A DNA stretch of 64,000 bases from Candidatus Thiodiazotropha sp. (ex Codakia rugifera) (lineage in GTDB: Bacteria > Pseudomonadota > Gammaproteobacteria > Chromatiales > Chromatiaceae). The stretch is taken from positions 248,001 to 312,000 of the forward strand of contig JAHXHN010000004.1 of NCBI GenBank assembly GCA_025656675.1, written 5' to 3'. Made by a program: the position numbers and the translations under genes. Below, piece by piece: positions 19,957-41,312 of the stretch. A model generated the notes under the pieces. The model had not been told where the DNA came from. It did no database searches and saw only the letters and a list, made by a program, of their open reading frames with translations. Within the stretch, counting starts at the first letter, position 1. Each line of letters begins with the position of its first letter.

Positions 19957-21126
19957 TTAATACCAGATAGATAGGTAGGCCTTGATGACATTCGCCGAGA
20001 ATGAGTAAAAAGGTTCCTGGCCTACCACACCTCCACGGGTGATATCACGAAAATCATCATAATCAAAACGGATCAAATCAAGTGAGAAGTTGAAGCTGCC
20101 GCTATCGATAAACTCCCAGCTGGCGGGTTTAAACGCGTAACTGACGCCAAAACCAATGCTGTGACTTTGAAAGCTACTCAACTCCTTGTCACGAGCGAGA
20201 AAATTTTGTTCATCCTGGCGAGTGAAAAGATCACTGTAGAAATCGGCTGCCCCCTGAGTGTAATAGCGGTATCGGACATCGAATACCCAATCCTTCTGTA
20301 ACGGATGGGTATAGGCAAATTCAAGATTGTTTGCGCTGATGCCCCAGGTATCATTGAAATAACGATACTCACCACTCAAGGCGGCACGATAAGGGAGATA
20401 ATATTTCAGACGTAACGCCAACGCGTTACTGGTACGCGTACGAGGATACTTCTCGGGTTGGAGACCAAATCCCTTTTCACTCAATGGATCGAGAAAGCGG
20501 TAAGCCCGATAGGGATTATTCAGAAAGCCCTGATCGGTAATGGTCTCCCAGTCAATACCGAGAATACTCTCTTTAGTCAGAACCTGAGTCACTCCAATGC
20601 GATAATTCTGCCTTTTCACCGACACACCGAAATCGCTGTCACCGTTGCGACTGATATCGTCATTTCCCACTGCATAGCCTAGCGAAACGGTGGTGAGATC
20701 GCCGAACATATCATGGCTGATATTAAAACTGCCGGTCTCTGCCTGGTAGTCGCTTTCATCACTGCTGGTAAATGCAAGACTCATTAAAGTCTTATTGTGC
20801 AGATAGTCCATTGCCAAACTGGTTTCGGTGCGCTCTTCGGTATAGGGGGAAGCGGTACTGACCACATCGACCGAGGCACTTGAGATGGAATCCACATAAT
20901 AATTGGCATTCACAGAAACACTTTGACCAATCGATTTTCGTACCAAAATCGAAGGTCCATCCACTTCGACGCCGCCGCCGTCGTAGCGATGATACATGAC
21001 GTCTGCCCGATCTTCCGGAAGTACTGTGGCATGCAGCCCCATACTGAACAGAAGTAGAAGGTGCAACCAACCACCGGTCCATCCAGTACAGCCCCAAAAA
21101 CAGGGTCTTTGACTAGTTACAGCCAC
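19957..21126 (-). CDS. DUF3570 outer-membrane beta-barrel protein
   Basis: A roughly 389-residue protein with a late hydrophobic signal segment (WLHLLLLFSMGLHA). The body is mature barrel sequence with regular aromatic, amphipathic strands (SVNANYYVDSISSASVDV, FDVRYRYYTQGAADFYSDLF) and ends in IWY. This matches DUF3570. The chosen GTG start overlaps the DUF4266 gene by 14 bases and uses its Gly-codon GGAGG run as ribosome site; a longer start at 21219 is possible. DUF3570 genes commonly accompany DUF4266, thioredoxin-like and ApbE genes (recalled association). Function unknown, presumed outer-membrane pore or exporter. Confidence 0.85.
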   Translation of the reverse strand: MAVTSQRPCFWGCTGWTGGWLHLLLLFSMGLHATVLPEDRADVMYHRYDGGGVEVDGPSILVRKSIGQSVSVNANYYVDSISSASVDVVSTASPYTEERTETSLAMDYLHNKTLMSLAFTSSDESDYQAETGSFNISHDMFGDLTTVSLGYAVGNDDISRNGDSDFGVSVKRQNYRIGVTQVLTKESILGIDWETITDQGFLNNPYRAYRFLDPLSEKGFGLQPEKYPRTRTSNALALRLKYYLPYRAALSGEYRYFNDTWGISANNLEFAYTHPLQKDWVFDVRYRYYTQGAADFYSDLFTRQDEQNFLARDKELSSFQSHSIGFGVSYAFKPASWEFIDSGSFNFSLDLIRFDYDDFRDITRGGVVGQEPFYSFSANVIKAYLSIWY

Positions 21127-21349
21127 AACCACCTCCCCCGCCACCCTCGGCACCACGGGCTGCCTCTCGGGTCTGGTGGACATGATGACGATAGGCACCT
21201 GCCACAGGGTCACGCTCAAAACTCATAATCGGGTCTGCCAGATGTGCCCGCTCATAGGGTTGCACCCAAGGTTCGATACTGCACCCAGTGCCTGCCATAA
21301 GCAGCATACAAGAGAGAAACAGCCTGGTTTTTGAATGAGGTAGGTTCAT
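21113..21349 (-). CDS. DUF4266 mini-lipoprotein with Gly-rich CGCN tail
   Basis: A 78-residue exported protein. The signal has a lipobox-like end (LMAGTGC, Cys about residue 23), then a short conserved core (ERAHLADPIMSFERDPV...HVHQTREAARG) and a run of glycines ending GGGGCGCN. The core and CGCN end match DUF4266. The mature protein is only about 55 residues, with two cysteines at the extreme C-terminus beside a His-containing core. It lies 11 bases after the TlpA-like gene. It could be a metal- or flavin-carrying peptide or a substrate matured by its neighbours; nothing in the sequence settles this. Confidence 0.88.
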   Translation of the reverse strand: MNLPHSKTRLFLSCMLLMAGTGCSIEPWVQPYERAHLADPIMSFERDPVAGAYRHHVHQTREAARGAEGGGGGGCGCN

Positions 21350-21360
21350 AAAACTGTTGA

Positions 21361-21876
21361 TTACTCGCGTAGTAATGCCCGAATCTGCTGTTGATAATCC
21401 TCTTCATATCCAGGCTTGTAGCCCTTGTGCAGATGGCGCACTTGACCGTCACGGTCGACCATGAAGGTACTTGGCATAGCTTTGACCTGGTACTGCTTGC
21501 TCACTTGGCTTTGGTCATCGAAGAGGATCGGAAAGCTGACCGTTACATTGCCCAGCATCTTGTCAGCCGCTGTATGATCTTCATCCACATTGACACCCAG
21601 CAGTGTAAAGCCCATGGATTGATATCGTTGATATAACTGTTCCAGTAACGGCATCTCTTGCCGACAGGGTCCACACCATGAGGCCCAGAAGTTGATCATT
21701 ACAACCTGTCCGCGCAATTCGCTTAGCTTGATGTTCTCACCGCTCCGGCTCTTGAGTGTAAAATCAGGGGCCGCTTGTGTTGAACTGGCAGCAATAACCT
21801 GTCCACTGAAAAACAACATCAGTCCGACCACCAGAGCTCGTTTCAATGGCAGTTTAATTTGGCATATTCTCAACAT
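21361..21876 (-). CDS. TlpA-like periplasmic thioredoxin
   Basis: A 171-residue thioredoxin-fold protein with a signal peptide (residues about 1-30) and the active site FWASWCGPCRQEMPLL. The cis-Pro motif is AMPSTFMVD. This fits a periplasmic disulfide reductase of the TlpA/ResA/CcmG type. Placed directly before the DUF4266 gene, it likely keeps the CGC cysteines of that lipoprotein, or haem-binding cysteines of nearby cytochromes, reduced (inference). Confidence 0.92.
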   Translation of the reverse strand: MLRICQIKLPLKRALVVGLMLFFSGQVIAASSTQAAPDFTLKSRSGENIKLSELRGQVVMINFWASWCGPCRQEMPLLEQLYQRYQSMGFTLLGVNVDEDHTAADKMLGNVTVSFPILFDDQSQVSKQYQVKAMPSTFMVDRDGQVRHLHKGYKPGYEEDYQQQIRALLRE

Positions 21877-21886
21877 CTCTATTCCC

Positions 21887-22549
21887 TCAAAAGAAAAAGG
21901 TCAGACTGCCATGCAGTTCAAAGTTATGAGTAGTCTTTGTCTCACCCAGCAAATCCGACTCGAACATGTGATCCCTGGCATCGAGATGCAGGGTCAGCCA
22001 GTCACTGATCAATAGACGATAACCTGCTCCCAGATTGACAGTGAACTCATCGTCACCGGCAAATCGAGTGCTACCAATCCCTGCAATCAGATAGAACTGG
22101 CTGTTGTAGGCATACTTGCCGCCTAGAAAGACCTCTCCCGGGAGAATGTTGTACCCGGCAGACAGGTTGTAGTAGGTGAGCTTGCGATCATCATCGGTTA
22201 ACAGTTGCACATCACCACCAAGCAGTTCAAAGCTGGTCTCATTGGCTTCACTGGTACCAATTGCAGCCTCCAGGAAGATAGACTCCGTACCATGATAGGC
22301 AAGCCGAGCCCCGTAAACTGCGCTAGTACCGAAATCCTCAATGGTCATGAGCCCCGCGTAGACGCCTACCTCGAAATCCTCTGAATCGATCTCAGGTTCC
22401 TCAATTTCACGTCGAGCAATCTCCGGTTCTATCAGTAGCTCCTCACGCAGGTTGTCACCAAGGGGCTCAGCCGCCTTGCAAGGCAACAGCACCAGAGATC
22501 CCAGCAGCGTTGCTGTACTCAGAAAAAGAAACCGAGTCCGATTTTCCAC
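21887..22549 (-). CDS. Outer-membrane beta-barrel protein
   Basis: A 220-residue protein with a signal peptide and an acidic linker (EPEIARREIEEPEIDSEDF), then an eight-strand-sized barrel ending FELHGSLTFFF. It resembles small barrels found with Agl/AgmX-type systems, though this is a recalled association. It overlaps the upstream SH3-barrel gene by 31 bases and lies 11 bases before the TlpA-like gene, so translation is probably coupled. Confidence 0.75.
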   Translation of the reverse strand: MENRTRFLFLSTATLLGSLVLLPCKAAEPLGDNLREELLIEPEIARREIEEPEIDSEDFEVGVYAGLMTIEDFGTSAVYGARLAYHGTESIFLEAAIGTSEANETSFELLGGDVQLLTDDDRKLTYYNLSAGYNILPGEVFLGGKYAYNSQFYLIAGIGSTRFAGDDEFTVNLGAGYRLLISDWLTLHLDARDHMFESDLLGETKTTHNFELHGSLTFFF

Positions 22550-23274
22550 TGGTCAAATTCCTCATTATCATCACGACTGGTAAAAACGGCGTAGTGGCGG
22601 AACTCCCCACGCATGAAAAAACGCCTTGTCAGATAGACTCGCAAACCTACCCCGACATGGGCAGTAGAGTCAGTACGATCCTCTGTCTGCACTAAGGTGG
22701 CATTCGGTTTGGTGCGGATGATACCGCTCCCAAGGGTAAAAAAAGGACTATAGGTCCACTCTGGAAAGGGTTGCGACAGTAGATTGATATCAATCAGATA
22801 CTCACTGGAAAAATCACCCAGAGCCTGTGAAAAACTGATCTCGGTGGAGAGGTTCTCATTGAATGAATAACCACCATATAGACCCAGTAAAGCAGCCCCT
22901 TCCATCTCTCCACCATAGAAACTGAATTCCCATTTGCGCTCTCGGAAATCATCCTGAGTATAAGAGACCAGTCGCAGTGGCTCTCTGTCTTCGGTACGAG
23001 TCTGGCGCATTTGATCGATGATAACCCAACCCAGTCGGCCACGGCGGGTATGGACCTGAAACCAGTCAGTACGACGCTTGCGGATCTCGACCCACTCCCC
23101 CCGCTCCACTACAAAGTCAATTGGATAGGAGCTTCCTGGACCTGTATGCATCTCAATATAAGGAGCTGTTACCTGAATGCGCCGATAATCATCATCTGCG
23201 TAACAGATTACAGGTAATAGCCAAACCAATATCCAGCTTGTATAGAGGAACCACTTTAACCTAAGAAGTCTCAA
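22519..23274 (-). CDS. SH3-domain outer-membrane beta-barrel protein
   Basis: A 251-residue exported protein. The signal peptide is followed by a bacterial SH3 domain (about 30-90: PYIEMHTGPGSSYPIDFVVERG, then GRLGWVIIDQM) and then a barrel of about 150 residues ending WKIGLGFFF. The SH3 domain suggests peptidoglycan or protein contact in the periplasm while the barrel sits in the outer membrane. It begins two bases after the HzsA-related gene ends. Confidence 0.8.
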   Translation of the reverse strand: MRLLRLKWFLYTSWILVWLLPVICYADDDYRRIQVTAPYIEMHTGPGSSYPIDFVVERGEWVEIRKRRTDWFQVHTRRGRLGWVIIDQMRQTRTEDREPLRLVSYTQDDFRERKWEFSFYGGEMEGAALLGLYGGYSFNENLSTEISFSQALGDFSSEYLIDINLLSQPFPEWTYSPFFTLGSGIIRTKPNATLVQTEDRTDSTAHVGVGLRVYLTRRFFMRGEFRHYAVFTSRDDNEEFDQWKIGLGFFF

Positions 23275-23276
23275 GC

Positions 23277-25916
23277 TTACTCATCCAGGGGGGCAATAAA
23301 GGGATCATTGTAATACTGTGCACCGATATCGAGCCATTCGGAAAGCAGTTTTTTTTCTGCATCACTCAGGTAGCCAGAATGGGAGCCGCCCGTATCAAAC
23401 ATTTCCAGAAAACGGCTGTTATTGGCAGAGCCGGCCATCATTGAAGCCCCTCCCGGTACAGGTACAGGTACATCAGGAAGTGGTACTGGATTTCCGTCTC
23501 CATCCAGGACCAGTTCACCGTTTTCATCTGTTTCAAAGAGCTGATTACCATTTGCATCCACTGCAGGTACCAGGACATCGACCAGGATACCATCCACAAC
23601 CTCCTGCAGATTGTCGGTAAACAGCAGCTCCCGGTAAGCGGCAAAATGCTCTGGATCATCTTCGGAAGGACCGTCACTGAGATCCAACTGGGCATCCGGT
23701 ACCACAGTCACACCAGCATCATCACTAGCGTGGCAAAGGATACAAGTATGGTCATCGATCTGAGTATCAGTAGCATCAAACACTGGCCGCGGCAGACTCC
23801 ATAATGGATGAATATGCTGCTCGTAATGAATGATGGCACGACAGAGTTCATTCCAGTTGGATGTGCAAAGAGCATCATTCAAGGGAGAGGCGCTATCCAG
23901 GTCAACATAGCGATAGCTGAATGCCTCATCAATCGCGCTTGTTGCAGGATCCGTCCAGACGTCACTGAAGAGCAGATCCATACTAGGATCACAAGCAGCT
24001 GCATTGCATTGCAATCTGTTTCGTGTCTGTGCCATGGTCTCACCCGTATCGCCCCACAGCTCAGGATTCGCGTTTGGAAAAGGTTGACCTGTCTCGGTGT
24101 TGCCACTGTTGATGCTGGGTGGCGCTGCACTCAGGCGACCATGTGCAAGGGGATTATCGGCCTCATGACAACCACTGCACTCAACCACTTCACCCGGCCG
24201 AAATTGCAACCAGAAACCATGGTCTTGCCCGGTACGTCTACCATTAGCATCCAGTATACTGAAGCTGACAGGTACATTCGCCGGCACCTTAACCTGCACC
24301 GACCCATCGGGCTCGATGGGCGCATAACCGATCACCTCACGCATACCAAACTGGGCGGTCCTTCCGAATGCGCTGGATGAAAATTCAAGCACATCATCGT
24401 CCGGTATCGTGACCTGCTTGATCAGGCGAAGAAATCGTGCAGGACGATCATCTGCTCTTGTCTGTGCCGGATCAGCCAGGGTTGCTATATCGGGATCAGC
24501 CCTATCAACACCGTCCAGATCATAAACGCTTCGGATGTGCAAAAGACCGGCCTTGTCAGCCACAAGTGAAGGATCGAGATCGATACCCGCTGTCTTATCG
24601 TGGCGGATAATCGGCAGTGAACGCCCTACAGCCACGACTACATCAGTGTAGATAATGCCCTCTTGCGGTTTTACGATCGGCTGCTGGGTCTGTTCCGCCC
24701 CGTCATAAACAAACAAACTATAGAGTGGCGGTGCGGGCTCAGCATCAGGATTGGCCAGACGTTCCTCGGTACAGGGAACAATGCGTTCCTGTTCCAGTAA
24801 TCGACACTGATTCCAACTGATCAACAACCTGTCAGTACCGTCAAACAATGGGTAAGCACTGCGCAGCTGCCCTCCCCTGGAGAGGCTGCCGTCAGTAGTG
24901 ATCTGATGTACCGTTGCACGACTCTGTGCAGGTCCGGTTAGTCCCAGGTTGTCCCATGTGGGCTGTTCATTATCGACAAAATTGCTGCTATCAATAAGGG
25001 TTAGATCGCCACCCTCATCCGTACCATCCACAGGTAGTAACAAGGCCATGATGCGACCATCCGGCATCTCCTGTGGTCGCATGAACTGCACCGTGCTTCC
25101 CGATGTCCCGGTTTCATGACTATTCAAACCATATAACAACTCCATCTCCGTCCCATCAGGATTCATACGGTAGAGATGGATAGCATTGTTGCCATCTGAA
25201 TTATCCCATCGACTGAATACTATCTGACCGTTGGTGAGTACGCTCGGAGTGAAATCGTGGCTACGATTAAATGAAATCTGGGTGATATTGCTACCGTCAT
25301 CATTCATGACATGCAGCACCATGGCCGGCTCGTTAACAGCGCGTTCGATGGCTAAATATTGAGGCTTGCCCTCATCCAGCAGACGTGCCTTGGCAAGACG
25401 CTGACGGGTGGAAGAGAAGACAATGCGTCCATCGGGTAGATAGTGGGGAAAGCGATCATGGCCATCTTCCGCGGTAATATCCGAAACGATGATTCGTCTG
25501 ATCGCGCGGGAGGGAATATCGTACTCCCAGATATTCCATGTCGGTTGATCTTCAGGTTCAGCATCTTCAATCAGTGCCAAACGAAGAGAGAACAGTAACT
25601 TCATACCATCAAATGAGACAGAGACATCCCTGACATCACCGAGACCACCCGTCACTGAGCCAGTGAGGTTGATCTCATCCGCACTCCCAGCGGCGAAATC
25701 CTTCAGATAGAGATCACCACCCGCTTCAGTGGCCTGACTTACCCTGATATCCGTGTTGCTCATCTCCGTGACAGGGCGTTTAACATACGCAACAGGATAG
25801 TCGACCACGACAGGATCCTGCTCCTGGCTGCTCCCTCCACCGCATCCCAACAGGGTAAGGAATAACAGGACCGCACAGACATCTATCAGGATAGTCACGC
25901 GAATAGCAGATTTCAT
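23277..25916 (-). CDS. HzsA-related dihaem c-type lipoprotein with beta-propeller
   Basis: An 879-residue lipoprotein using the ATG at 25916, which gives a lipobox (LTLLGCGGGSS). The first two thirds carry TolB/PD40-like propeller repeats (SFDGMKLLFSL, LPDGRIVFSSTRQ, LTNGQIVFSRWD). Two haem sites follow: CSGCH near residue 580 and CILCH near residue 724. This layout matches proteins annotated as related to the hydrazine synthase alpha subunit, but that does not imply hydrazine chemistry, and no anammox genes are present. It is probably a surface or periplasmic electron-transfer protein. It heads the six-gene minus-strand operon. Confidence 0.8.
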   Translation of the reverse strand: MKSAIRVTILIDVCAVLLFLTLLGCGGGSSQEQDPVVVDYPVAYVKRPVTEMSNTDIRVSQATEAGGDLYLKDFAAGSADEINLTGSVTGGLGDVRDVSVSFDGMKLLFSLRLALIEDAEPEDQPTWNIWEYDIPSRAIRRIIVSDITAEDGHDRFPHYLPDGRIVFSSTRQRLAKARLLDEGKPQYLAIERAVNEPAMVLHVMNDDGSNITQISFNRSHDFTPSVLTNGQIVFSRWDNSDGNNAIHLYRMNPDGTEMELLYGLNSHETGTSGSTVQFMRPQEMPDGRIMALLLPVDGTDEGGDLTLIDSSNFVDNEQPTWDNLGLTGPAQSRATVHQITTDGSLSRGGQLRSAYPLFDGTDRLLISWNQCRLLEQERIVPCTEERLANPDAEPAPPLYSLFVYDGAEQTQQPIVKPQEGIIYTDVVVAVGRSLPIIRHDKTAGIDLDPSLVADKAGLLHIRSVYDLDGVDRADPDIATLADPAQTRADDRPARFLRLIKQVTIPDDDVLEFSSSAFGRTAQFGMREVIGYAPIEPDGSVQVKVPANVPVSFSILDANGRRTGQDHGFWLQFRPGEVVECSGCHEADNPLAHGRLSAAPPSINSGNTETGQPFPNANPELWGDTGETMAQTRNRLQCNAAACDPSMDLLFSDVWTDPATSAIDEAFSYRYVDLDSASPLNDALCTSNWNELCRAIIHYEQHIHPLWSLPRPVFDATDTQIDDHTCILCHASDDAGVTVVPDAQLDLSDGPSEDDPEHFAAYRELLFTDNLQEVVDGILVDVLVPAVDANGNQLFETDENGELVLDGDGNPVPLPDVPVPVPGGASMMAGSANNSRFLEMFDTGGSHSGYLSDAEKKLLSEWLDIGAQYYNDPFIAPLDE

Positions 25917-26203
25917 CGGTAGATAGGTTCCCCGCAGAGCCGATAGTACAGTCACGAGTTGAGCTGCATAGACAGACTTAAATATCACTATCGTCTAGTA
26001 AAATCATGGACTTGAGAGTCTACCTTAACGAAGAGGCCAATCAGTGCACGAGTTCACAACCTGAAAAAACAAAAGTCTCGTATTCGCCACTTAGCATTGA
26101 CAAAAAAAACGACTGATATAGATAGAGAGGGGAAACTATCGCATATTCATTCGAGGCTAACCTTCATGCCTCGTGAACAGACGGCTTCAGGGGCGCATTC
26201 ATC

Positions 26204-27397
26204 ATGTCAGGACAGTGTCAATCCAACTATCCACTATCACGTTCTGGTTTCCTGGTACTGCTGATGACGCTGACATCACTGTTTCTTCATGCTGCAAGTG
26301 CCACAGCAGGACCACGCGAACAGGCTCAGCGAATTCATGATCGGATTGCCGGTGTACCACCGAGTGCTGCCATCCTCACCCAGATGGTCAGCGAGATAGC
26401 GGATAACAACGATCCACTGGCAGCTGCCATGCTTGCGACGGAACATCCTGACTTTTACAACGTCACCATAAAGAACTGGGCGACTCCCTGGACAAATGAG
26501 GACCAAACACCCTTTGCCCCTTTGAATGACTACTCAGCCACAGTCATCGGTATGGTGCGCGATGATGTACCGTTTAATCAATTACTCTCTGCCGATATCC
26601 TTTACATAGGCAGCAATTCACCTGCCTACTCAAACAACAACAACGATCACTACGAAACGATGGAGAACCAGGGAGTAAACCTCAAGGATGATCTTCAAAG
26701 AACAACCCAATCGAGTGTAACCGGTCTTCCGGTAGAAGGAACCGCCGGCATCATCTCCACCCGGGCTGCTGCAAGGGCCTTCTTTATCGATGGCACTAAC
26801 CGAGCCATGTTCCGTTTTACGATGCTCAATCATCTGTGTAAGGATCTTGAACTAATCAAAGATCCGACACGCTCCAGCGACCGGGTACGCCAGGATGCCA
26901 CACGTAGTCCCGGTGGTGATAGCCGGGTGTTTTTCAATAACTGTGTGGGATGTCATGCCGGCATGGAGCCTTTGACACAGGCCTATGCCTACTACAACTA
27001 TGAGTACACCGACGATCAAGAAGCCGGCAGACTAAGCTACACGCCCGGTACCGTCCAACCCAAGTACCTCATCAATAGCAGTGTCTTCAAAGATGGTTAT
27101 GCCACCCCGGACGACAGCTGGGATAACTACTGGCGAGAAGGCCCCAACTCCCTCCTTGGCTGGGACCCTAGCCTGCCGGGCTCGGGGATGGGCGCCAAAT
27201 CGATGGGCGAGGAGTTGGCCAACAGTCACGCCTTTGCCGAATGCCAGGTCAGCAAGGCCTTCCAGGCGGTCTGTCTACGCTCACCGGTGGATAGCCCTGA
27301 CCGTACTCGTATCGCTGAGATCACAAATAACTTTAAAACCGGCTACAACATGAAGCGCGTGTTTGCTGAAGCGGCCGTCTATTGTGCAGGGGATTGA
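26204..27397 (+). CDS. Exported monohaem c-type protein, function unknown
   Basis: A 397-residue protein with a signal peptide (hydrophobic core near residues 15-35, ending SATAG). One haem-binding motif, CVGCH, lies near residue 247. The family is not one I can name, but it recurs beside the next two genes in marine Gammaproteobacteria as far as I recall. It is divergent from the HzsA-related gene across a 287-base region that holds both promoters but no gene. The next gene starts within a few bases of its stop. Confidence 0.75.
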   Translation: MSGQCQSNYPLSRSGFLVLLMTLTSLFLHAASATAGPREQAQRIHDRIAGVPPSAAILTQMVSEIADNNDPLAAAMLATEHPDFYNVTIKNWATPWTNEDQTPFAPLNDYSATVIGMVRDDVPFNQLLSADILYIGSNSPAYSNNNNDHYETMENQGVNLKDDLQRTTQSSVTGLPVEGTAGIISTRAAARAFFIDGTNRAMFRFTMLNHLCKDLELIKDPTRSSDRVRQDATRSPGGDSRVFFNNCVGCHAGMEPLTQAYAYYNYEYTDDQEAGRLSYTPGTVQPKYLINSSVFKDGYATPDDSWDNYWREGPNSLLGWDPSLPGSGMGAKSMGEELANSHAFAECQVSKAFQAVCLRSPVDSPDRTRIAEITNNFKTGYNMKRVFAEAAVYCAGD

Positions 27398-27401
27398 GCC
27401 A

Positions 27402-29882
27402 GTGAGCATGCTAAACAGAGCGAACAATAATCGTGGATGGGCAGATAAAACTATCCATATCATCATTGCTGCTATTGCATTGGCTGGGCTTCAGGCTTGT
27501 CAAGACGGTGTATCCACCCAAGGTCAGCAACAGACGAATATAATAACCAGTACCTATAGTGGCCCAGCAGCACGTACAACGGATATTCAGGGGTTTCGTA
27601 TCAGTGTATGGGAACCTCTGCGAGCTCAAAACCGCTGTGGCGCGTGCCACAATACAGGTGGTCAGGCACCCCTGTTTGTACGCGAGGATGATGTTAATCA
27701 GGCTTATGAAGCAGTCAACCCTCATGTGAACAGGGAAGAACCTGACGAATCCCTGTTGGTCACCAAGGTTGCAAATGGACATAACTGCTGGGAAGCCAGT
27801 AATAGCGCTTGCGCCACTATCATCACCAACTATATCGAGTCATGGGTTGGCGATGGCAGTGGTGCAGGGCGGCAGATCGAACTCGAAGCACCTCCTGAAA
27901 ATGTTGTCGGAGAGAGTAAGGTTTTTCCCGATGATGCCGGACTATTCACCACCCATGTTCACCCACTGCTTACGCAGTATTGCTCCGAATGTCATGTTGA
28001 GGATGCTGATTCTCCCCAATCCCCCTATTTTGCCAGCAGTGACACTGGGGCCGCTTATACGGCGGTTAAGACATCCATTGACCTGGATACACCTGTCAAT
28101 TCACGCTTGGTACAACGTCTGGTCGAGCTTCACAACTGCTGGGACGACTGTCCCGACAACGCTCAGGAGATGGAAGGTGCCATCAGCAACATGGCCAACA
28201 GCATTACTCCGACACCTATCAATCCCAACTTGGTTGTCAGCCGTGCCTTGACCCTGCCTGAAGGGACCGTGGCCAGTGGTGGAAGCCGTCAGGAAAACGA
28301 TATTGTCGCACTGTATGAGTTTAAAACCGGCAATGGTAACATTGCTTATGACACCAGTGGCGTCGATCCGGCTATCAACCTCACCCTAAACGGTGATGTT
28401 TCCTGGGTCGAAGGTTGGGGACTCGATTTTAAAAACGGCAAGGCTCAAGGCAGTACCGGCGACAGCCGCAAACTGGCTCAATTGGTTCAGGCCACCGGTG
28501 AATATACCATTGAAGCCTGGGTGGTACCCTCGAATGTAACCCAGGAAGGACCAGCACGTATTATCAGCTATTCTGCCGGTACCGATGTACGTAACTTTAC
28601 CCTCGGTCAAACACTCTATACCTATAACCATCTGCATCGCTCCAGCACCACCGATGGCAATGGTGAGCCAGCCCATTCCACTTCCGACGACGATGAAGAC
28701 CTGCAAGCTACGGAACAACATGTGGTTGCCACTTTCGATCCTGTGAATGGACGCCGTCTCTATGTAAATGGTTTATTCACCGACGATATGGATGAGACCG
28801 CACCAGGCAACCTGAATGACTGGGACGATAGTTATGCCCTGGTATTAGGCAATGAAGCATCCAGCAACCGACCCTGGGCAGGAAAAATACGCTTACTGGC
28901 TATCCATAATCGGGCATTGACTCAAGAACAGATAACACAGAATTTTGCCGCTGGCGTGGGAGAGAAATACTTTCTGCTATTTAATGTCAGCCAGCTGGTC
29001 GATCTTCCTCAAAGCTTCATCGTATTCGAGGTCAGCCAATTCGATAACTACAGCTATCTTTTCCGTCAGCCAAAATTCATCAGCCTGGATGAAACTGTAT
29101 TACCAGGATCCATTCCTTTGGAGGGTATGCGTATCGGCATCAACGGCAAGGAAGCGGCTATCGGCCAAGCCTATACCCGTTTAATAACGACCATTAATGA
29201 CAGTGAATATTCTGTAAATGGTCAGCTTCTTTCGAATATCGGTACAACCATCGCCTCTGAAAAGGGATCGGAAAGTGACCAGTTTTTCCTCACCTTCGAA
29301 AGACTCGGAGCCCATACTAACGTCTACACTGAACCCGCTGTACTACCACCGGCTGAGCCAGCAGATAGTGAGCCTGTCTCTCTGATCGGCCTGCGGACGT
29401 TTGACGAGATCAACGCAACAATGTCAGCTCTGACAGGTGTCAGTCACACCCTGAGTGCCGTACAGACCACCTATACCACCATAAAGCAGCAGCTTCCTTC
29501 AGCAGAGGATATCAATGGTTTTCTCTCCTCTCATCAAGTCGCTGTTTCACAGTTGGCCATCGAATACTGTAGTGCACTGATTGATGACACTGGCCTGCGT
29601 TCCGGTTTATTGCCAGGATTTGATTTCAGCATCAATGCCAATGATATTCAGAACGCCACCTGGCAAAGCCAGGTAGTGGCTCCGCTGATGACCCGATTCA
29701 TGGGACAAAACCTGACCACTCAGCCTAATCCGGCACTTGTCGAGAGTGAACTGATGAATCTCCTGACAGGTAGTGTGGGTCTGGCCCGATGCAGTGGCCA
29801 GTGTGCAGCAGACCGTACTGAAAAGGCGACCAAAGCAGCTTGTGCCTCACTGCTGGGTAGTGCTGTGGTTCTACTGCAGTAA
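27402..29882 (+). CDS. LamG-domain dihaem c-type lipoprotein
   Basis: An 826-residue lipoprotein (signal IIAAIALAGLQAC). Two haem motifs lie in the N-terminal third: CGACH near residue 79 and CSECH near 194. A LamG/concanavalin-like domain spans about 300-520 (YTIEAWVVP, TFDPVNGRRLYVNG, GKIRLLAIHNRALT). The C-terminal 300 residues are unrecognised. The GTG start at 27402 has GGGGA eight bases upstream; an ATG two codons later is the alternative. Combining haem with a sugar-binding-like fold suggests work on an extracellular polymer or surface (inference). Confidence 0.8.
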   Translation: MSMLNRANNNRGWADKTIHIIIAAIALAGLQACQDGVSTQGQQQTNIITSTYSGPAARTTDIQGFRISVWEPLRAQNRCGACHNTGGQAPLFVREDDVNQAYEAVNPHVNREEPDESLLVTKVANGHNCWEASNSACATIITNYIESWVGDGSGAGRQIELEAPPENVVGESKVFPDDAGLFTTHVHPLLTQYCSECHVEDADSPQSPYFASSDTGAAYTAVKTSIDLDTPVNSRLVQRLVELHNCWDDCPDNAQEMEGAISNMANSITPTPINPNLVVSRALTLPEGTVASGGSRQENDIVALYEFKTGNGNIAYDTSGVDPAINLTLNGDVSWVEGWGLDFKNGKAQGSTGDSRKLAQLVQATGEYTIEAWVVPSNVTQEGPARIISYSAGTDVRNFTLGQTLYTYNHLHRSSTTDGNGEPAHSTSDDDEDLQATEQHVVATFDPVNGRRLYVNGLFTDDMDETAPGNLNDWDDSYALVLGNEASSNRPWAGKIRLLAIHNRALTQEQITQNFAAGVGEKYFLLFNVSQLVDLPQSFIVFEVSQFDNYSYLFRQPKFISLDETVLPGSIPLEGMRIGINGKEAAIGQAYTRLITTINDSEYSVNGQLLSNIGTTIASEKGSESDQFFLTFERLGAHTNVYTEPAVLPPAEPADSEPVSLIGLRTFDEINATMSALTGVSHTLSAVQTTYTTIKQQLPSAEDINGFLSSHQVAVSQLAIEYCSALIDDTGLRSGLLPGFDFSINANDIQNATWQSQVVAPLMTRFMGQNLTTQPNPALVESELMNLLTGSVGLARCSGQCAADRTEKATKAACASLLGSAVVLLQ

Positions 29883-29925
29883 TTATCAGTAGTTGATTGA
29901 AGAGAAATCCAACGGAAAACAGACC

Positions 29926-31497
29926 ATGCGCAGAAAAGTGAACAACCTCTCTCCTGATGCCCCACTGCTCTACCCTGATCATCCTCGTCCTGTGACGCGT
30001 CGTGACTTTATTCGTCAGGGACTCATGGCTGGCCTCGGTGCTGTTACTGCACCCTCACTTTTCGGTCTCTTTGCCAATCCAGGAGAAGCCAGGGCAGCCC
30101 TCTCATCTGACCTAGAGACACTGAAAAATGCCTGCGGTATCGATACCCTGGGCGGTGGAAAGGTTCCTTTCATCTGTTTCGACCTGGCAGGAGGAGCCAA
30201 TATCGCCGGTTCAAACGTATTGACAGGGCAACAAGGCGGACAACTCGATTTTCTCACCACGGCCGGTTATAACCGGCTTGGCCTACCTGGAGACATGGTT
30301 CCTTCGATCGCCAATCCGGATACCGGGCTCAATGATTTCATCAACAATGAACTGGGGCTTTCTTTCCATTCGGACAGTGCCTTTCTTCGAGGAATACTTG
30401 AGAAGGTCTCTGTCGGAAATCGGGCCAGTATCAATGGCGCTGTAATCCCAGCCCGTTCAGAAAATGATACCGGCATTAATCCTCACAATCCTATGTATGC
30501 CATCAATCGTTGCGGTGCGGACGGAGAGCTGTTAACCCTGATCGGATCCCGCAGTTCCGATTCTGGTGGTAACTCTGTTGCACCTGCGGATCAAATCGAT
30601 CCATCTGTCCGACCCACCAAGGTCGACCGGCCCAGTGACACAACAGGACTGGTGGACACCGGTAAGCTGGTGGGGCTGTTAGATCAATCCGATGCAGTAG
30701 CGGTTATGGAAGCGATACAACGTATCTCCGACATGAAACTCGACAGTGTCAACACCGGCATATCCACAGACCAGGTAGTCAAGGAGTTGGTACGCTGTGG
30801 TTATGTAAAGAGTGCTGACCTGGTGGATCGGTACGGTGACCCGGCAGCCCTAGATGTCACTGCCGATACGGATATCATCGGCCCTATCTTCACTCAAGCG
30901 GAGTTTGATAACGACAGCGAATTCCGTAAAACCGCATCTGTGATGAAGTTGGTCATCAATGGTTATGCCGGGGCTGGCACAATCACTATGGGCGGTTACG
31001 ACTATCACACCGGCGATCGGGCTGTGGGTGAAATCCGTGACCTCCGTGCAGGACGTTGCATGGGTGCCTGTCTGGAGTATGCAGCCCGCATTGGAACCCC
31101 GCTGATGCTTTACGTTTTCAGTGATGGATCCGTTTCCAGTAATGGCACTATCGACAATTCAGCCGATGGACGCGGCAAGGGTGTCTGGACGGGCGACAAC
31201 CAATCCACTGCGGCTTCCTTCTTCCTGGTCTTTAACCCTGGTGGTCAACCTGTGTTGGCAGGTGGCTCAGCCGATGAACAGTTGCGCCATCAACAGATCG
31301 GTTATTTCACAGCTGATGGTGCGGTTGACAATGGCTCCAGTCCGGCAGCTAACAATGTAAATCAACTGGTACAGACAGTGGCCCTCAACTACCTGGCACT
31401 ACACGGTGAGCAGGGGCAGTTCAGCACCCTATTTGGTACCAATCTAGGCAATGCAACCATGCTGGACAGTTTGACAGCGTTCAATCCGGTCGTTTAG
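29926..31497 (+). CDS. Tat-exported DUF1501-like protein
   Basis: A 523-residue protein with a twin-arginine signal (TRRDFIRQGLMAGLGAVTA). The mature region begins with the conserved VPFICFDLAGGANIAGSN and contains NPHNPMYAINRCGADG and FGG/MGGYDYHTGDRA-type blocks. It resembles DUF1501-like Tat proteins, which are sometimes mislabelled GspF. Folding before export suggests a cofactor or metal. It lies 43 bases after the LamG gene and completes a haem/LamG/Tat trio, an arrangement reminiscent of planctomycete DUF1501 loci. Confidence 0.8.
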   Translation: MRRKVNNLSPDAPLLYPDHPRPVTRRDFIRQGLMAGLGAVTAPSLFGLFANPGEARAALSSDLETLKNACGIDTLGGGKVPFICFDLAGGANIAGSNVLTGQQGGQLDFLTTAGYNRLGLPGDMVPSIANPDTGLNDFINNELGLSFHSDSAFLRGILEKVSVGNRASINGAVIPARSENDTGINPHNPMYAINRCGADGELLTLIGSRSSDSGGNSVAPADQIDPSVRPTKVDRPSDTTGLVDTGKLVGLLDQSDAVAVMEAIQRISDMKLDSVNTGISTDQVVKELVRCGYVKSADLVDRYGDPAALDVTADTDIIGPIFTQAEFDNDSEFRKTASVMKLVINGYAGAGTITMGGYDYHTGDRAVGEIRDLRAGRCMGACLEYAARIGTPLMLYVFSDGSVSSNGTIDNSADGRGKGVWTGDNQSTAASFFLVFNPGGQPVLAGGSADEQLRHQQIGYFTADGAVDNGSSPAANNVNQLVQTVALNYLALHGEQGQFSTLFGTNLGNATMLDSLTAFNPVV

Positions 31498-33519: not shown

Positions 33520-33919
33520 AATCCATCCTCAAATTAGGGTGATTGTCACCTGTCATCATTTACCTGAACCTGAGGATTGATGACCGTTACAGACGGTAAA
33601 TGGGTTTTTCATTACCCACGGGAGCCACCTCCCCTTTTACCCCCCATAACTAGGCTCATCAATAGCAAAAAAATAGACCCGATTCAGGCTGAATTTTATT
33701 GCGACCTCAAATTAACTATTTAATTCAGCTAATTACATAGCGGTATATATACATTTTTCTTTCCATACAACTGGCATTATTATTACATTGTGAACAGGCA
33801 TAGCGATTGACAGCCACATCACCTATCATGGTATTTGGGCATTTATTACCAACTTTCCAGTTCAACCTGTGACTATGATCGCAAACGCAACACACTAATT
33901 CATATAGATTTGTTTGTTC
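33520..33919. other. 400-base divergent intergenic region
   Basis: No gene seen. The region is AT-rich in its right half and separates the DUF3187 gene (minus) from the TPR/Exb operon (plus). It presumably holds both promoters. I cannot place either one with confidence. Confidence 0.4.
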
Positions 33920-34483
33920 ATGACTCAGCTTAAAAATGACTCGGGAATCAACACTTTGAAGATCTTACTCCGAATTGCGCTTATTACCCTCTGCTGTTTC
34001 GGTATATCGCTGTCAGCCGAGCCGCTTGCGGACAGCGGTCAAGGCCTGGATCAACAGGTTGAGGATCTAAAAAAAGCAGTCGTAGAACTCAATCGAGAGC
34101 TCTTTATCCTCGAAGAGGAGTTATTATTCCCAGGCAATACTCAGGTCTCAATTTTTCTCTCCCTGGATATTGGCAAATACTTCAAACTCGATTCTGTACA
34201 GCTCCAGATAGATAGCAAGGAACTCACCAACTATCTTTACACTGAACGCGAGATCAAGGCTTTACAGCGAGGTGGGGTACAACGTCTCTACCTGGGAAAT
34301 CTGAAATCGGGTGATCATGAATTGGTTGCCTTCTTCACCGGAATCGGACCGAAAGGAAGAGATTACAAACGAGGCGCAACAGTCAGTTTCAATAAAGGTA
34401 TTGGGCCAAAATACCTGGAGCTGAAAATTGTTGACGGTGTCGCCTTGCAACAGCCGGATTTTGAGATCCGGGAGTGGGAGTGA
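33920..34483 (+). CDS. Exported small protein at the head of the TPR/Exb operon
   Basis: A 187-residue periplasmic protein. A signal-like helix (IALITLCCFGISLSAE) is followed by a short coiled coil (QGLDQQVEDLKKAVVELNRELFIL region), then a beta-rich domain (about 80-185). Such proteins next to TPR/ExbBD genes are sometimes labelled AraC regulators, but no helix-turn-helix is visible. The next gene starts in a GTGA overlap at its stop, so the two are co-translated. Function unknown. Confidence 0.7.
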   Translation: MTQLKNDSGINTLKILLRIALITLCCFGISLSAEPLADSGQGLDQQVEDLKKAVVELNRELFILEEELLFPGNTQVSIFLSLDIGKYFKLDSVQLQIDSKELTNYLYTEREIKALQRGGVQRLYLGNLKSGDHELVAFFTGIGPKGRDYKRGATVSFNKGIGPKYLELKIVDGVALQQPDFEIREWE

Positions 34484-36345
34484 TACGGGTGCTATCTGGC
34501 CTGACTTCCCGCCTGCTAATCTCGCTCTCTCTTGCCTTACCACTCTGCGCCACGGCGGAGATACGTGTCGGTGAACCACAAGAGCTGCGTGACCTGCACT
34601 ATGGCGAAGCCCTATATCAGCTCTACCAGCAGAACTATTTTCCCGCTATCGTCCATCTCCTTTCCGCCAGAAAACAGGGATTGATGGAGGCCTATGAAGA
34701 TGAGCCTGAACTATTGCTGGGTGGGCTCTACCTGGCCTATGGCATGCCAAATACCGCAGAAACGTTGTTTAACCGGGTTCTGAAACAGAGTGCATCACCC
34801 AAGATACAGCGTCGGGCCTGGCTGCAACTGGGTAAATCGCGTCATCGCAGGGGCAACACGCAAGCCGCTAAAAGTGCGCTCAAACAGGTGGGTGATGACC
34901 TAGAGTCAGAGATGAGTGATGAAAAACACCACTTGACAGGTCTGATCGGTCTTATCCAGAAAAATGAACCTGCAGCCTTATCTGATCTCAGTAAAATTTC
35001 CCAACAGAGTGAATGGTCTCTGTATGGTCGTTTCAACCTGGCTATAGCCCATCTGCGAAGTAATCAGCAGGAAAAAGGCCTCGCTTTGCTGCAGGAGATC
35101 GGCAGCGGCTCCAAGGAGACAGATGACGCAGAGGCCAAATCGATACGCGATCGGGCCAATCTTGCCCGAGGCTTTTTATTACTGGAGACCCAACAAGCCG
35201 AAGATGCCAGAAATTCCCTGCAACGCGTTCGCCTTAAAAGCCCGTCCAGTAGCCAAGCATTATTGGGACTCGGCTGGGCGTCATTACAACTGGGAAATCG
35301 AGAACAGGCCCTCCCACCCTGGCAACTGCTCGCTCAACGCAATACCAGCGATCCGGCTGTACTGGAAGCGAAACTGGCAATCCCTTATGTCCTCTCCCTA
35401 CTACAGGCTGATCGCCAGTCACTAGAGTCCTATCGCGATGCAATCGATACCTATGACAGCTCAATTCAACAATTGGACCGAATGCTTCAAGAAGTCACCA
35501 AGGGTGATTTCCCAAATAGTCTGCTAGGTGACTTAGATCCCACACCTACTACGGGGATAGCTGAGTCTGAACTGCGCTCCCTGCTCTCATATCTGCTATC
35601 AGGCAATGCTTTTCAGGAACGACTACAGGACTACCGTGATCTGCTCGCCATTGAAAGCAACCTGAAACAATGGCAAAAGAAGATCACATCCTATCGTACA
35701 ATGCTGGCCAACCAGCGGGATGCCTATAAACAGAAAGAACCGCGTGTTGATGCTCACTTGCAGGGTCAAAGCCTCGACCAGGTAGTCATAGAGAAAGATC
35801 GGCTCAAGGCCCTCTACGAACAGGCTGAATCAACAGAGGAGCCCCTGTTTGCCCTTGCAGATCAAAAAGAGAAAGGCTGGATCGAAAGACTAAAGCGCAT
35901 CAATCGTCTGATCACCAAACACAACGCAAGTGGTCAATTATCAACCCAAGTGGAAATGGCGCGATTGATGGAAGGCATACTTACCTGGCGGATGGCAACT
36001 GAACACCCCAGCAGGATTCGGGCACTGAAAAAACAGCTAACCGACCTGGAACTGAACATCGAACTGGCCCACCAAAAGGAGAGTAAGCTAGCCAAAGCAC
36101 GCAGCAGTGCCAAAGGCCGTTTCGACTCATTCTCAAAGCGAATATTAAAACTAGAGAGAGCGATACCACAGCTACAACGGCAGCTGAACAAGCTGCGCCA
36201 GTCACAAGCTGGCGCACTGCAGGAAATTGCACTCTCCCAACTTGAGAAGCGCAGAAGCCTGATCAACAACTATCTGATCCAGGCAAGATTCGGTGTCGCC
36301 AATCTGATGGATCTTAGTGCCGCAAGAGAGGGGGGACAAGAATGA
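34480..36345 (+). CDS. Exported TPR protein with C-terminal coiled coil
   Basis: A protein of about 621 residues with a signal peptide (LLISLSLALPLCATAE). TPR-like helices follow (YGEALYQLYQQNYFPAIVHL; TLFNRVLKQSASPKIQRRAW), then a long helical and coiled-coil C-terminal third (LKKQLTDLELNIELAHQK). The GTG at 34480 overlaps the previous stop by four bases; other GTGs lie two codons upstream and three codons downstream. It is probably a periplasmic scaffold of the Exb/AgmX machine (inference). Confidence 0.8.
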   Translation: MIRVLSGLTSRLLISLSLALPLCATAEIRVGEPQELRDLHYGEALYQLYQQNYFPAIVHLLSARKQGLMEAYEDEPELLLGGLYLAYGMPNTAETLFNRVLKQSASPKIQRRAWLQLGKSRHRRGNTQAAKSALKQVGDDLESEMSDEKHHLTGLIGLIQKNEPAALSDLSKISQQSEWSLYGRFNLAIAHLRSNQQEKGLALLQEIGSGSKETDDAEAKSIRDRANLARGFLLLETQQAEDARNSLQRVRLKSPSSSQALLGLGWASLQLGNREQALPPWQLLAQRNTSDPAVLEAKLAIPYVLSLLQADRQSLESYRDAIDTYDSSIQQLDRMLQEVTKGDFPNSLLGDLDPTPTTGIAESELRSLLSYLLSGNAFQERLQDYRDLLAIESNLKQWQKKITSYRTMLANQRDAYKQKEPRVDAHLQGQSLDQVVIEKDRLKALYEQAESTEEPLFALADQKEKGWIERLKRINRLITKHNASGQLSTQVEMARLMEGILTWRMATEHPSRIRALKKQLTDLELNIELAHQKESKLAKARSSAKGRFDSFSKRILKLERAIPQLQRQLNKLRQSQAGALQEIALSQLEKRRSLINNYLIQARFGVANLMDLSAAREGGQE

Positions 36346-39176: not shown

Positions 39177-39756
39177 GCTTTCACTCGCCAGCCTCTTTTT
39201 TATGCTCCACTTTTCCGGATGCGGCACTAATCCAGTTCAAAGCATCAGCCGTGACGATTCCGAATTGCGCAATGTTGATTCGGAGTTACAACAGACTTTC
39301 GAATCAGCGCTGCAACTGATGCGTCAGAATAAAACGGCACAGGCAAAAAAGCATTTACAAAACCTGATAGACCAATATCCTCAAATGGCTGGGCCCTATA
39401 TAAACTTAGGCATCATTCAACTGACAGAAGGCGATCTAGCCAAGGCTGAGAACACATTTACTACTGCCTTGAAAATCAAACCTGACAGTCCCCCAGCCCA
39501 TAATCAACTGGGAGTCGCCCTCAGGATGCAAGGTAAGTTTCAGGAGGCGGAGCAGGCCTATACAAGCGCTCTTAAATTACAACCCGACTACCTGCTGGCT
39601 CACCGCAACCTGGGAATTCTTTACGATCTCTATCTACCCAGACCAAAGCTTGCATTACAACACTACAAGCACTGTCAGACTTTGAGTGATTCCTCCGACA
39701 AAGAGATCAGTGGCTGGATTCTCGATCTTGAGCGTCGAATCAAGCCATCAAAATAG
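39163..39756 (+). CDS. TPR lipoprotein
   Basis: A 197-residue lipoprotein (lipobox HFSGC) with about three TPR units (GPYINLGIIQLTEGDLAKAE, PAHNQLGVALRMQGKFQEAE, LAHRNLGILYDLYL). It is of PilF/NlpI size. It overlaps the larger TPR gene by 14 bases. It is probably another periplasmic adaptor of the same machine. Confidence 0.82.
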   Translation: MRLIKLSLASLFFMLHFSGCGTNPVQSISRDDSELRNVDSELQQTFESALQLMRQNKTAQAKKHLQNLIDQYPQMAGPYINLGIIQLTEGDLAKAENTFTTALKIKPDSPPAHNQLGVALRMQGKFQEAEQAYTSALKLQPDYLLAHRNLGILYDLYLPRPKLALQHYKHCQTLSDSSDKEISGWILDLERRIKPSK

Positions 39757-40143: not shown

Positions 40144-40797
40144 ATGGAACTCATTGATCCCATCATCCGATTTTTCCAGGAAGGCGGACTCTTTATGTAT
40201 CCCATCCTGCTGATCTTTGCCGGCGGAGTGGCGATAGCCATTGAACGCTGGGTCTATCTAACCCTGGCGACAGGGAGCAACAAACGTACTTGGAAATCAG
40301 TCCTGCCTCATCTCAATGATGGCGATTTCAAGTCAGCTATGGAGGCTGCAAATAAGTCCAAGACAGCCATAGGCACCATGCTGACCTACGGCTTAGCCCG
40401 CGCACGTACCGCCAGGCGTCGTGATGATGTGGAGGTTGCCATGGAAGAAGGCTTGATGGAAGCCATCCCACGCATGGAAAAGCGCACCCACTATCTCAGC
40501 ACACTCGCCAATATCGCCACCCTTCTCGGTCTGCTAGGTACCATTATCGGCCTCATTCAAGCATTTACCGCTGTCTCCAATGCTGACCCTGCTGAAAAAG
40601 CGGATCTATTATCGGCCAGTATCTCGGTTGCCATGAATACAACCGCATTCGGTCTGATGGCGGCTATACCCTTGTTGTTGGTCTATGCCCTACTACAGAG
40701 CAAGACGACGGCTATTGTTGACAGTCTGGAGATGGCTTCAGTCAAGTTTCTCAACATCTTCAATGAGAAGGCTTTCACCACACGGAGCAAGGCATGA
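40144..40797 (+). CDS. ExbB/TolQ/MotA-family proton channel protein
   Basis: A 217-residue inner-membrane protein with three helices: LFMYPILLIFAGGVAIAI near the start, and the pair around NIATLLGLLGTIIGLIQAF and AMNTTAFGLMAAIPLLLVY. The last two hold the conserved Thr/Gly proton-path residues. Paired with the following two ExbD-like proteins, it would form a proton-driven motor. A good GGAG site lies upstream. Confidence 0.92.
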   Translation: MELIDPIIRFFQEGGLFMYPILLIFAGGVAIAIERWVYLTLATGSNKRTWKSVLPHLNDGDFKSAMEAANKSKTAIGTMLTYGLARARTARRRDDVEVAMEEGLMEAIPRMEKRTHYLSTLANIATLLGLLGTIIGLIQAFTAVSNADPAEKADLLSASISVAMNTTAFGLMAAIPLLLVYALLQSKTTAIVDSLEMASVKFLNIFNEKAFTTRSKA

Positions 40798-41312
40798 GAA
40801 GCCGATTACGTCACCATCACCATGAGGCGGAGTTGAATATCACCGCCTTTCTCAATCTGATGGTGATCCTGATCCCCTTTTTGCTGATTACTGCCGCTTT
40901 TTCGCGATTCTCCATTATTGAACTCTATCTACCACCTGCCAGCGAAGGTACCTTGCAAGCCATTAAAGAGCTCCAGTTGGAGGTGATTATTCGCAAACAG
41001 GGGCTTGAAGTGGCAGATCGTGAAGGTGGATTGATCAGGCGCCTTAACAATACACCTGAGGGTTATGACCTGAAGGGATTGAATGAACTGCTGGTACAGA
41101 TCAAGGTTCGCTTCCAGGATAAGCGAAGTATTTTTATCCTCTCCGAGCCAGATACCGACTATGAAACCATGGTTCAGGTGATGGATGCAGTACGTATGAC
41201 AGAGAATGTAGAAGCCGGGTCGGTGATCCAATATGAACTATTCCCTGATATCGCACTGGGCGATGCGCCACCAATAGTCAACCAGACGCAGGATAAAGGT
41301 AATCCCTCATGA
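40794..41312 (+). CDS. ExbD/TolR-family protein (first copy)
   Basis: A 172-residue protein with one helix (AFLNLMVILIPFLLITAAF) and a periplasmic domain. The usual membrane aspartate of ExbD is not seen at its normal place, where the helix reads FLNLMVIL, whereas the second copy retains SLMDIFTIL. This copy may be a structural partner only. It overlaps exbB by four bases (ATGA). Confidence 0.88.
   Translation: MRSRLRHHHHEAELNITAFLNLMVILIPFLLITAAFSRFSIIELYLPPASEGTLQAIKELQLEVIIRKQGLEVADREGGLIRRLNNTPEGYDLKGLNELLVQIKVRFQDKRSIFILSEPDTDYETMVQVMDAVRMTENVEAGSVIQYELFPDIALGDAPPIVNQTQDKGNPS

Follow-up and report, generated by a model that had tools for sequence, protein, structure and literature searches.

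Gene order, the conservation of a C-terminal Cys-Gly-Cys (CGC) tail and of a flavin acceptor, the joint loss of both in two genera, a DUF4266-DUF3570 fusion and a joint absence of a LamG cytochrome connect the DUF4266 mini-lipoprotein analysed here with the neighbouring DUF3570 outer-membrane barrel. The window, i.e. the whole stretch of 64,000 nucleotides from Candidatus Thiodiazotropha sp. (ex Codakia rugifera) that was analysed, carries a copy belonging to a gammaproteobacterial subtype of this pair, which is found beside a dihaem protein resembling the alpha subunit of hydrazine synthase (HZS-like) and two outer-membrane proteins. From sequence comparison and by analogy with the CXC tail of Erv2, we lean, at little better than even probability, towards the reading that the CGC tail acts as a flexible thiol-disulfide shuttle to FMN on DUF3570.

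The operon and its published relatives

The operon occupies the minus strand from 25988 to 19957 in the order HZS-like, SH3/barrel, OMP_myx_plus, TlpA, DUF4266 and DUF3570, with the following features:

23277 to 25988, minus strand: hydrazine-synthase-alpha-like lipoprotein with two CxxCH (PF18582, 61 bits; PDB 5c2v, E 3e-7)
22519 to 23274, minus strand: SH3 plus outer-membrane barrel protein (PF13505)
21887 to 22549, minus strand: OMP_myx_plus outer-membrane beta-barrel (TIGR04565, 163 bits)
21361 to 21876, minus strand: TlpA/ResA-like periplasmic thioredoxin with WCGPC (Redoxin/AhpC-TSA match; ResA and TlpA chains in the PDB)
21113 to 21349, minus strand: DUF4266 mini-lipoprotein, type A (REAARGAE... 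subtype; Pfam PF14086, 80.9 bits)
21116 to 21127, minus strand: CGCN codons at the C-terminal end, directly before the stop of the DUF4266 gene (read from the sequence)
19957 to about 21099, minus strand: DUF3570 outer-membrane barrel, type A, exact start codon uncertain (PF12094, 140.7 bits)
20872 to 20892, minus strand: predicted flavin acceptor site 1, DSISSAS (alignment with orthologues)
20848 to 20868, minus strand: candidate flavin acceptor site 2, DVVSTAS (alignment with orthologues)

The DUF4266 ORF encodes 78 amino acids, and reading of its sequence gave a signal peptide with the lipobox LLMAGTGC and, after the lipobox Cys, a mature part of 56 residues with the C-terminal end GGGGGGCGCN. 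The PF14086 profile (cut-off 27) was matched at positions 1-50 of 50, to the last residue of the protein. The first-pass annotation had described a DUF4266 mini-lipoprotein with a CGCN end flanked by a TlpA-like thioredoxin and a DUF3570 barrel; the lipoprotein was found as described and both neighbours were borne out by profile matches. Only 11 bp lie between the TlpA/ResA-like gene and the DUF4266 start, and the barrel gene follows directly after DUF4266. An AF2 model of DUF4266 (63 sequences) was of low confidence (pLDDT 65), with helices at residues 9-15, 18-22 and 26-42 and an unstructured tail of very low confidence. Sequence searches of the PDB returned no useful relatives of either DUF4266 or DUF3570, neither protein matched a Pfam family other than its own at E 0.001, and no viral homologues were found.

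Within the open-access literature, the only paper found to name DUF4266, DUF3570, PF12094 or PF14086 was that of Meheust et al. 2021 (PMC8238504). Its accessible text describes 221 DsbD-type clusters with DUF4266 as well as a further 316 ApbE/DUF3570/thioredoxin-like/DUF4266 clusters away from DsbD, reports by experiment that Chlorobium luteolum DUF3570 is flavinylated at two [ST]GA[ST] sites, proposes that the C-terminal CXC of DUF4266 'may undergo redox cycling' and calls the role of DUF3570-based electron transfer uncertain. As far as that text goes, the window shares with the ApbE/DUF3570/thioredoxin/DUF4266 clusters the Pfam families, a flavin acceptor on DUF3570 and the CXC tail: in its operon order DUF4266 adjoins DUF3570 and a thioredoxin-like protein, and the barrel bears the acceptor motif DSISSAS with Ser for Gly. 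The scan of 20 proteins from 19957 to 44147 found no DsbD, which sets the window apart from the DsbD subtype. It further differs in that its DUF3570 is divergent with Ser at the motif Gly, that ApbE is usually not adjacent, and that its locus has haem proteins and a nearby Glt-like core set, neither of which is mentioned in the accessible part of PMC8238504.

Several earlier suggestions have to be read against this background. An ApbE in the same island had been proposed; the ApbE is genuine, but it is located 22 kb off, beside an ExbB/ExbD/TonB set and outside the DUF4266 operon. A thiol role of the tail had also been put forward, and a redox role of CGC is indeed the best reading; this idea is not new, however, since it is already in print in the accessible text of Meheust et al. 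2021 (PMC8238504), which likewise answers the proposal to look for co-occurrence of these families. The suggestion that DUF4266 is an undescribed modified substrate was not supported, because the protein has no conserved ApbE motif and the substrate established by experiment is DUF3570, in Chlorobium luteolum. Similarly, DUF4266 was rejected as a flavin acceptor after inspection of tails and an alignment of relatives, which contained no conserved D-x-x-[ST]-G-A-[ST]; the residue after RGA varies (E, D, S, T, G, M, L or V).

Distribution of the subtypes and the genes around them

A search of 204 genomes from the class of the window genome, with the completeness filter set at 90% or more, detected DUF4266 in 51 and DUF3570 in 55, with both in 51, DUF4266 alone in none and DUF3570 alone in four (Fisher 8e-44, not corrected for kinship; 12 weak second DUF3570 fragments, all in genomes already counted, were left out). 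The survey that the first-pass annotation had called for therefore places DUF4266 together with DUF3570 beyond chance (51 of 51 genomes), with a TlpA-like gene in most loci. A same-strand DUF3570 was found within 3 kb at 71 of the 73 DUF4266 places, the exceptions being in genomes G100, where the two genes are 30 kb apart and tail and acceptor are both kept, and G250.

An HZS-like gene was located within 8 kb at 29 of the 73 places, and at all 29 the DUF3570 matches its Pfam profile in part, from about 93-226 to 262-397. The gene for a 189-aa protein was found within 20 kb on the same contig at 21 of these 29 places and occurred in 31 of 32 genomes with an HZS-like gene vs 17 of 172 other genomes; the number of HZS-like genomes was reduced from 35 to 32 by leaving out weak hits in G153, G191 and G273 (E above 1e-6), and one weak hit in G217 and second fragments were also not counted. 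Genome-wide searches found no HZS-like gene in G127, G254 and G175, which have a type A-like DUF4266, DUF3570 and a nearby 189-aa gene. The other 44 DUF4266 places, which have no HZS-like gene within 8 kb, were each read (loci L006, L113, L114 and 39 of the 40 class-wide loci L132-L171); L171, the fortieth, has an HZS-like gene. The genome of the window contains both subtypes, type A in the window and type B on contig C3, where TlpA, a DUF3570 carrying TGAS and an adjacent ApbE were found, as in the clusters published by Meheust et al. 2021. In this type B locus, a COX1-like 464-aa protein encoded upstream of TlpA (L006:9978-11372) is a possible electron partner.

Type A loci were also collected by pattern searches, and the best 80 of 216 (L026-L105, 79 of them type A) are referred to as the named loci; they include records named Alteromonas, Shewanella, Colwellia and Glaciecola. 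Counted over those of the named loci (best 80 of 216) with room for the respective gene, OMP_myx_plus was present in 74/74, the SH3/barrel protein in 71/71, the HZS-like gene in 63/63, DUF3570 in 76/76, TlpA-like in 68/77, a single-haem protein in 54/58, the LamG protein in 48/52 and a 534-aa protein in 35/38; the four loci without LamG in the flank (L055, L065, L096 and L103) have it elsewhere in the genome. HZS-like ORFs of the same loci (best 80 of 216) carry two CxxCH in 65 of 71 cases. The 189-aa gene was found within the available downstream flank of 4-10 kb in 22 of 61 named loci (best 80 of 216), whereas in the window it is on the other flank. An ApbE of the window's subtype was located within 5 kb of the type A DUF3570 in eight of 79 type A loci, and ApbE was present in the downstream flank in seven of 61 loci with at least 4 kb there (both among the best 80 of 216); those within 5 kb are closer to the window ApbE (285-372 bits) than to the C3 ApbE (71-110 bits). 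On the plus strand of the window, the corresponding genes and the Glt-like core set are as follows:

26204 to 27397, plus strand: single-haem protein (CVGCH) of a divergent operon (one CxxCH in 58/58 ORFs of the named loci, best 80 of 216)
27363 to 29882, plus strand: LamG-domain protein with two CxxCH (PF13385; two CxxCH in 53/56 ORFs of the named loci, best 80 of 216)
29893 to 31497, plus strand: 534-aa protein with a twin-arginine-like N-terminus (no Pfam match)
33914 to 34483, plus strand: 189-aa protein of the Glt-like core set (gene in 31/32 HZS-like genomes)
34474 to 39756, plus strand: three TPR proteins (34474-36345, 36342-39176 and 39163-39756; profile matches)
40144 to 42795, plus strand: ExbB, ExbD, ExbD and a TonB-like protein with AgmX/PglI C-terminal domain (NF033768, 71.6 bits, cut-off 40)
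43125 to 44147, plus strand: ApbE flavin transferase (PF02424, 284.3 bits)

The single-haem protein matched PSCyt2 (E 0.0074) and PSD2 (E 0.12), both families from Planctomycetes, weakly. Lgt and DUF3187 are encoded between the divergent haem genes and the 189-aa gene. For the 534-aa protein, which may be the functional heart of the locus, neither Pfam nor NCBIfam gave a match, and copies with 61-67% identity were found in three other Gammaproteobacteria; a suspected kinship with DUF1501 was discarded, there being no Pfam match even at E 10.

ExbB, two ExbD, a TonB-like protein with the AgmX/PglI domain and TPR proteins are thus clustered in the window, and these are the components shared with the Agl-Glt/Nfs core in the accessible texts of PMC3169522 and PMC3858216. 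No Glt orthology is claimed, because the equivalog models for GltG, GltJ and GltE hit far below their cut-offs. According to the part of Luciano et al. 2011 (PMC3169522) available to us, the Agl-Glt core complex is present in Gammaproteobacteria with a function that was unknown as of 2011. The window set differs from the Agl-Glt/Nfs systems of these accessible texts in travelling with a flavin-thiol-haem set; in the main text of both papers the word 'thioredoxin' occurs 0 times, as do 'cytochrome' and 'flavin' in that of PMC3858216. The DUF4266 family and the shuttle mechanism are of known kinds. As far as our searches of open-access papers show, within the text accessible, the tie of DUF4266/DUF3570 to an Agl/Glt-like core set with haem proteins is new, and the same holds for the Ser-for-Gly acceptor of DUF3570 and for both co-losses described below.

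Cysteine tail, flavin acceptor and their joint losses

Every DUF4266 tail read consists of CGC plus one or two residues, except for that of the degenerate L169, which has one in-frame stop at the DUF3570 place and a partial DUF4266 match. CGCN was found in 79 of 79 DUF4266 proteins of the named loci (78 type A plus L104, no DUF4266 ORF having been called in L102; best 80 of 216), a count that is partly circular because one search pattern contains GGGCGCN. Profile-based samples are fairer for tail counts than these pattern-found loci; in one such sample 17 of 17 places end in CGCN, and the 41 DUF4266 hits in L132-L171 comprise 35 with CGCN, two with CGCEQ, one each with CGCE, CGCY and CGCD, and one with none (L169). 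The tail of L113 is CGCN and both genes of L114 end in CGCY. Two DUF4266 genes per locus were observed in L114 and L154.

On the barrel, D45, A50, S51 and D53 are invariant in 59 aligned DUF3570 sequences, and in 78 of 80 DUF3570 ORFs site 1 has the form D..[ST][SGA]A[ST] with a hydrophobic residue and then D behind it; L028 and L104 fall outside this expression but contain SGAS motifs. The motif Gly position at site 1 is occupied by Ser in 62, Gly in 15 and Ala in one of the 78 orthologues. At site 2, A58 and S59 are at least 90% kept and the preceding residues are variable. A loss of the flavin sites in the window DUF3570, as the missing Gly in SSAS and STAS might suggest, was rejected because Ser and Gly interchange with D, A and S kept. 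For a Gly-to-Ala change in the acceptor motif, the accessible text of a review (PMC12052999) gives about 50% of flavinylation as retained.

For mature DUF3570, AF2 (59 sequences) predicted a barrel of 16 long strands (pLDDT 92, pTM 0.86), in which the flavin sites are located in loop 49-61 (mean pLDDT 60 for residues 51-60). Foldseek with this model returned general outer-membrane barrels including a chain of the Mtr complex, with a query TM of at most 0.54 among the 50 matches listed, and no function was drawn from these matches, the Mtr chain included.

Four genomes of the class sample (G147, G267, G110 and G214) have DUF3570 without a DUF4266 match, the DUF3570 hit of G214 being itself only weak. 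In genus g113 (G147 and G267; loci L106/L130 and L107/L131), DUF4266 is absent genome-wide and TlpA is absent at the locus in both genomes; the OMP directly adjoins DUF3570, therefore TlpA and DUF4266 are missing between them. The DUF3570 of this genus reads ESIRGLPED or EQISGLPDD at site 1, where the acceptor is gone, and keeps A-S at site 2 as ATAS (L130) and ASAS (L131); 12 of 78 orthologues that have the tail share this form. Because A-S of site 2 remains, only site 1 was lost with the tail. The G147 locus retains the HZS-like gene, both outer-membrane proteins, DUF3570, the 189-aa gene and TPR genes, and its HZS-like protein has three CxxCH in the absence of the tail. The G267 contig carries the OMP, DUF3570, the 189-aa gene and two TPR genes before it ends, with the HZS-like gene on another contig.

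In genus g76 (G110, G312 and G332; L115-L117), a DUF4266-like stretch is fused to DUF3570 in all three copies, in the order lipoprotein signal, DUF4266-like stretch (PYERT ... SREAEEGASGA) and DUF3570. Alignment and gene order identified the fusion; on its own the DUF4266-like stretch scores weakly (10.8 bits in L116, no hit in L115 and L117). The fused protein has no CGCN tail and neither site aligns with the acceptor motif, and at two of the three fusion loci a CxxC TlpA is retained although the tail is gone. TGAS or SGAT strings in L116, L117 and L131 are located in the C-terminal part or the signal peptide, off the sites. Joint loss of tail and site 1 was hence found as only two events (g76 and g113). 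Relatives of the fusion were matched in 26 of 40 genomes, with loci obtained for 15; all 12 non-fused loci read (L118-L129) have CGCN together with D..[ST][SG]A[ST], and class-wide 39 of the 40 loci L132-L171 have CGC and a Ser/Thr acceptor with a motif like [DE]xx[STVI][GAS][ASP][ST], L169 being the exception.

The LamG cytochrome was not found in five tail-less genomes and was present in 12 of 12 checked tail-bearing genomes, which were hand-picked rather than random (G000, G311, G321, G165 and G278 as well as those of L055, L065, L066, L089, L096, L098 and L103; the genome match of L055 was in pieces). G126 (L109) keeps the LamG module and has no barrel or DUF4266. In this genome the module is found beside an HZS-like gene in pieces and without the 189-aa gene, which looks like a decaying locus.

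Proposed electron exchange between tail and flavin, and its alternatives

In the mechanism we propose, DUF4266 would be an outer-membrane lipoprotein that holds its flexible CGC tail near the DUF3570 barrel, and ApbE would attach FMN to Ser51, perhaps also Ser59, of the barrel. The tail would cycle between dithiol and disulfide, passing electrons between the periplasmic TlpA-like thioredoxin and the FMN; the FMN might in turn exchange electrons with c-type haems of proteins from this locus. The direction could be either outward (DsbD-like donors, thiol, FMN, haem, outside) or oxidative (thiols via flavin to cytochrome c). We infer flavinylation of the window DUF3570, contact between tail and flavin, and redox cycling from the comparative data; the joint loss of CGC and site 1, the fusion to the barrel and the invariant flexible tail make electron exchange between tail and FMN the best explanation.

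A mobile C-terminal CXC serves as shuttle in Erv2, and the ERV flavin hands electrons to cytochrome c or oxygen (accessible text of PMC4019985). Our model would resemble the Erv2 and Erv1/Mia40 relay, as outlined in that text, in combining a mobile CXC tail, a flavin and cytochrome c; it differs in that the FMN is predicted to be attached through ApbE to an outer-membrane barrel and that the tail is on a separate lipoprotein. Pfam at E 0.001 gave neither DUF4266 nor DUF3570 a match to the FAD-binding helical domain with CXXC of Erv/ALR proteins, and no sequence relation to these was seen.

TlpA is the likely thiol partner of the CGC tail. It is not an obligate neighbour, since nine of 77 type A loci with room (best 80 of 216) have no adjacent TlpA; in these nine the barrel is still there, as are tail and acceptor wherever they were read. 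The haem proteins of the locus are likely the other partner, because the LamG cytochrome is absent where the tail is lost. Against such a relay stand the three-CxxCH HZS-like protein of G147 without the tail, the LamG module of G126 without the barrel, and G127, G254 and G175 without an HZS-like gene. The small number of two loss events, the site-2 A-S kept in g113, the weak score of the DUF4266-like stretch and the TlpA at two of the tail-less fusion loci likewise weigh against the model. The shuttle model also has to face the AF2 barrel, in which strand parity counted from periplasmic termini would place the flavin loop on the outward side, opposite the termini, whereas ApbE and DUF4266 are expected to be periplasmic.

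Some ResA/TlpA/DsbE proteins serve cytochrome maturation, and the window TlpA resembles this group. With cytochromes encoded in the same locus and tail loss accompanied by absence of the LamG cytochrome, TlpA and CGC might keep the thiols or haem sites of these cytochromes in order during assembly instead of feeding the flavin. We consider this unlikely: the tail disappears along with the site-1 flavin acceptor on the barrel, the G147 HZS-like protein keeps its three CxxCH with neither TlpA nor DUF4266 at the locus, and where no HZS-like gene lies within 8 kb of DUF4266 (44 places), the pairing with DUF3570 persists in 42. In addition, at most 22 of the 40 loci L132-L171 hold ApbE within a few kb (ApbE was seen in 19), with no HZS-like gene needed.

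CXC can also bind soft metals, and Met20 and His34 do not vary across 63 type A DUF4266 sequences. A tail that binds copper or iron, with DUF4266 as a metal carrier or sensor beside the barrel, would fit these residues as well as the VIT1 iron transporter found in 25 DUF3570 clusters (accessible text of PMC8238504), yet seems quite unlikely to us, given that metal binding alone predicts no joint loss with the flavin acceptor. In about eight of 40 class-wide CGC-bearing DUF4266 proteins (for example L137, L153, L156 and L164, judged by eye), K, R or Q stands in place of the His, and no metal transporter family was present among the 20 window proteins scanned.

DUF4266 might also be a structural plug or anchor of the barrel whose Cys tail sits in a lasting disulfide or modification with no electron flow. 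In favour of this, the fusion seems to keep DUF4266 apart from its tail, so that the role of the protein may be partly non-redox. The reading nevertheless seems quite unlikely to us, as the strict conservation of CGC and its disappearance along with the flavin site argue for a redox function and ApbE is the only modification enzyme recognised among the proteins scanned.

Electron exchange between the CGC tail and FMN on the barrel could also take a more specific form, which we regard as quite improbable: a haem-free outer-membrane conduit, in which the 14-residue Gly-rich CGC tail would enter the 16-stranded barrel from the periplasm and hand electrons to FMN on the outward loop, which would in turn supply cytochromes at the surface, parts of a machine driven by an Agl/Glt-type proton motor. 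If this were true, the gammaproteobacterial Glt core would be at least partly a redox machine. With an Agl/Glt-like core and DUF3570 genes in one conserved locus, and with two natural losses in which Cys tail, site-1 acceptor and a cytochrome are missing jointly, the functions of the core and of DUF3570 become testable in culturable marine bacteria.
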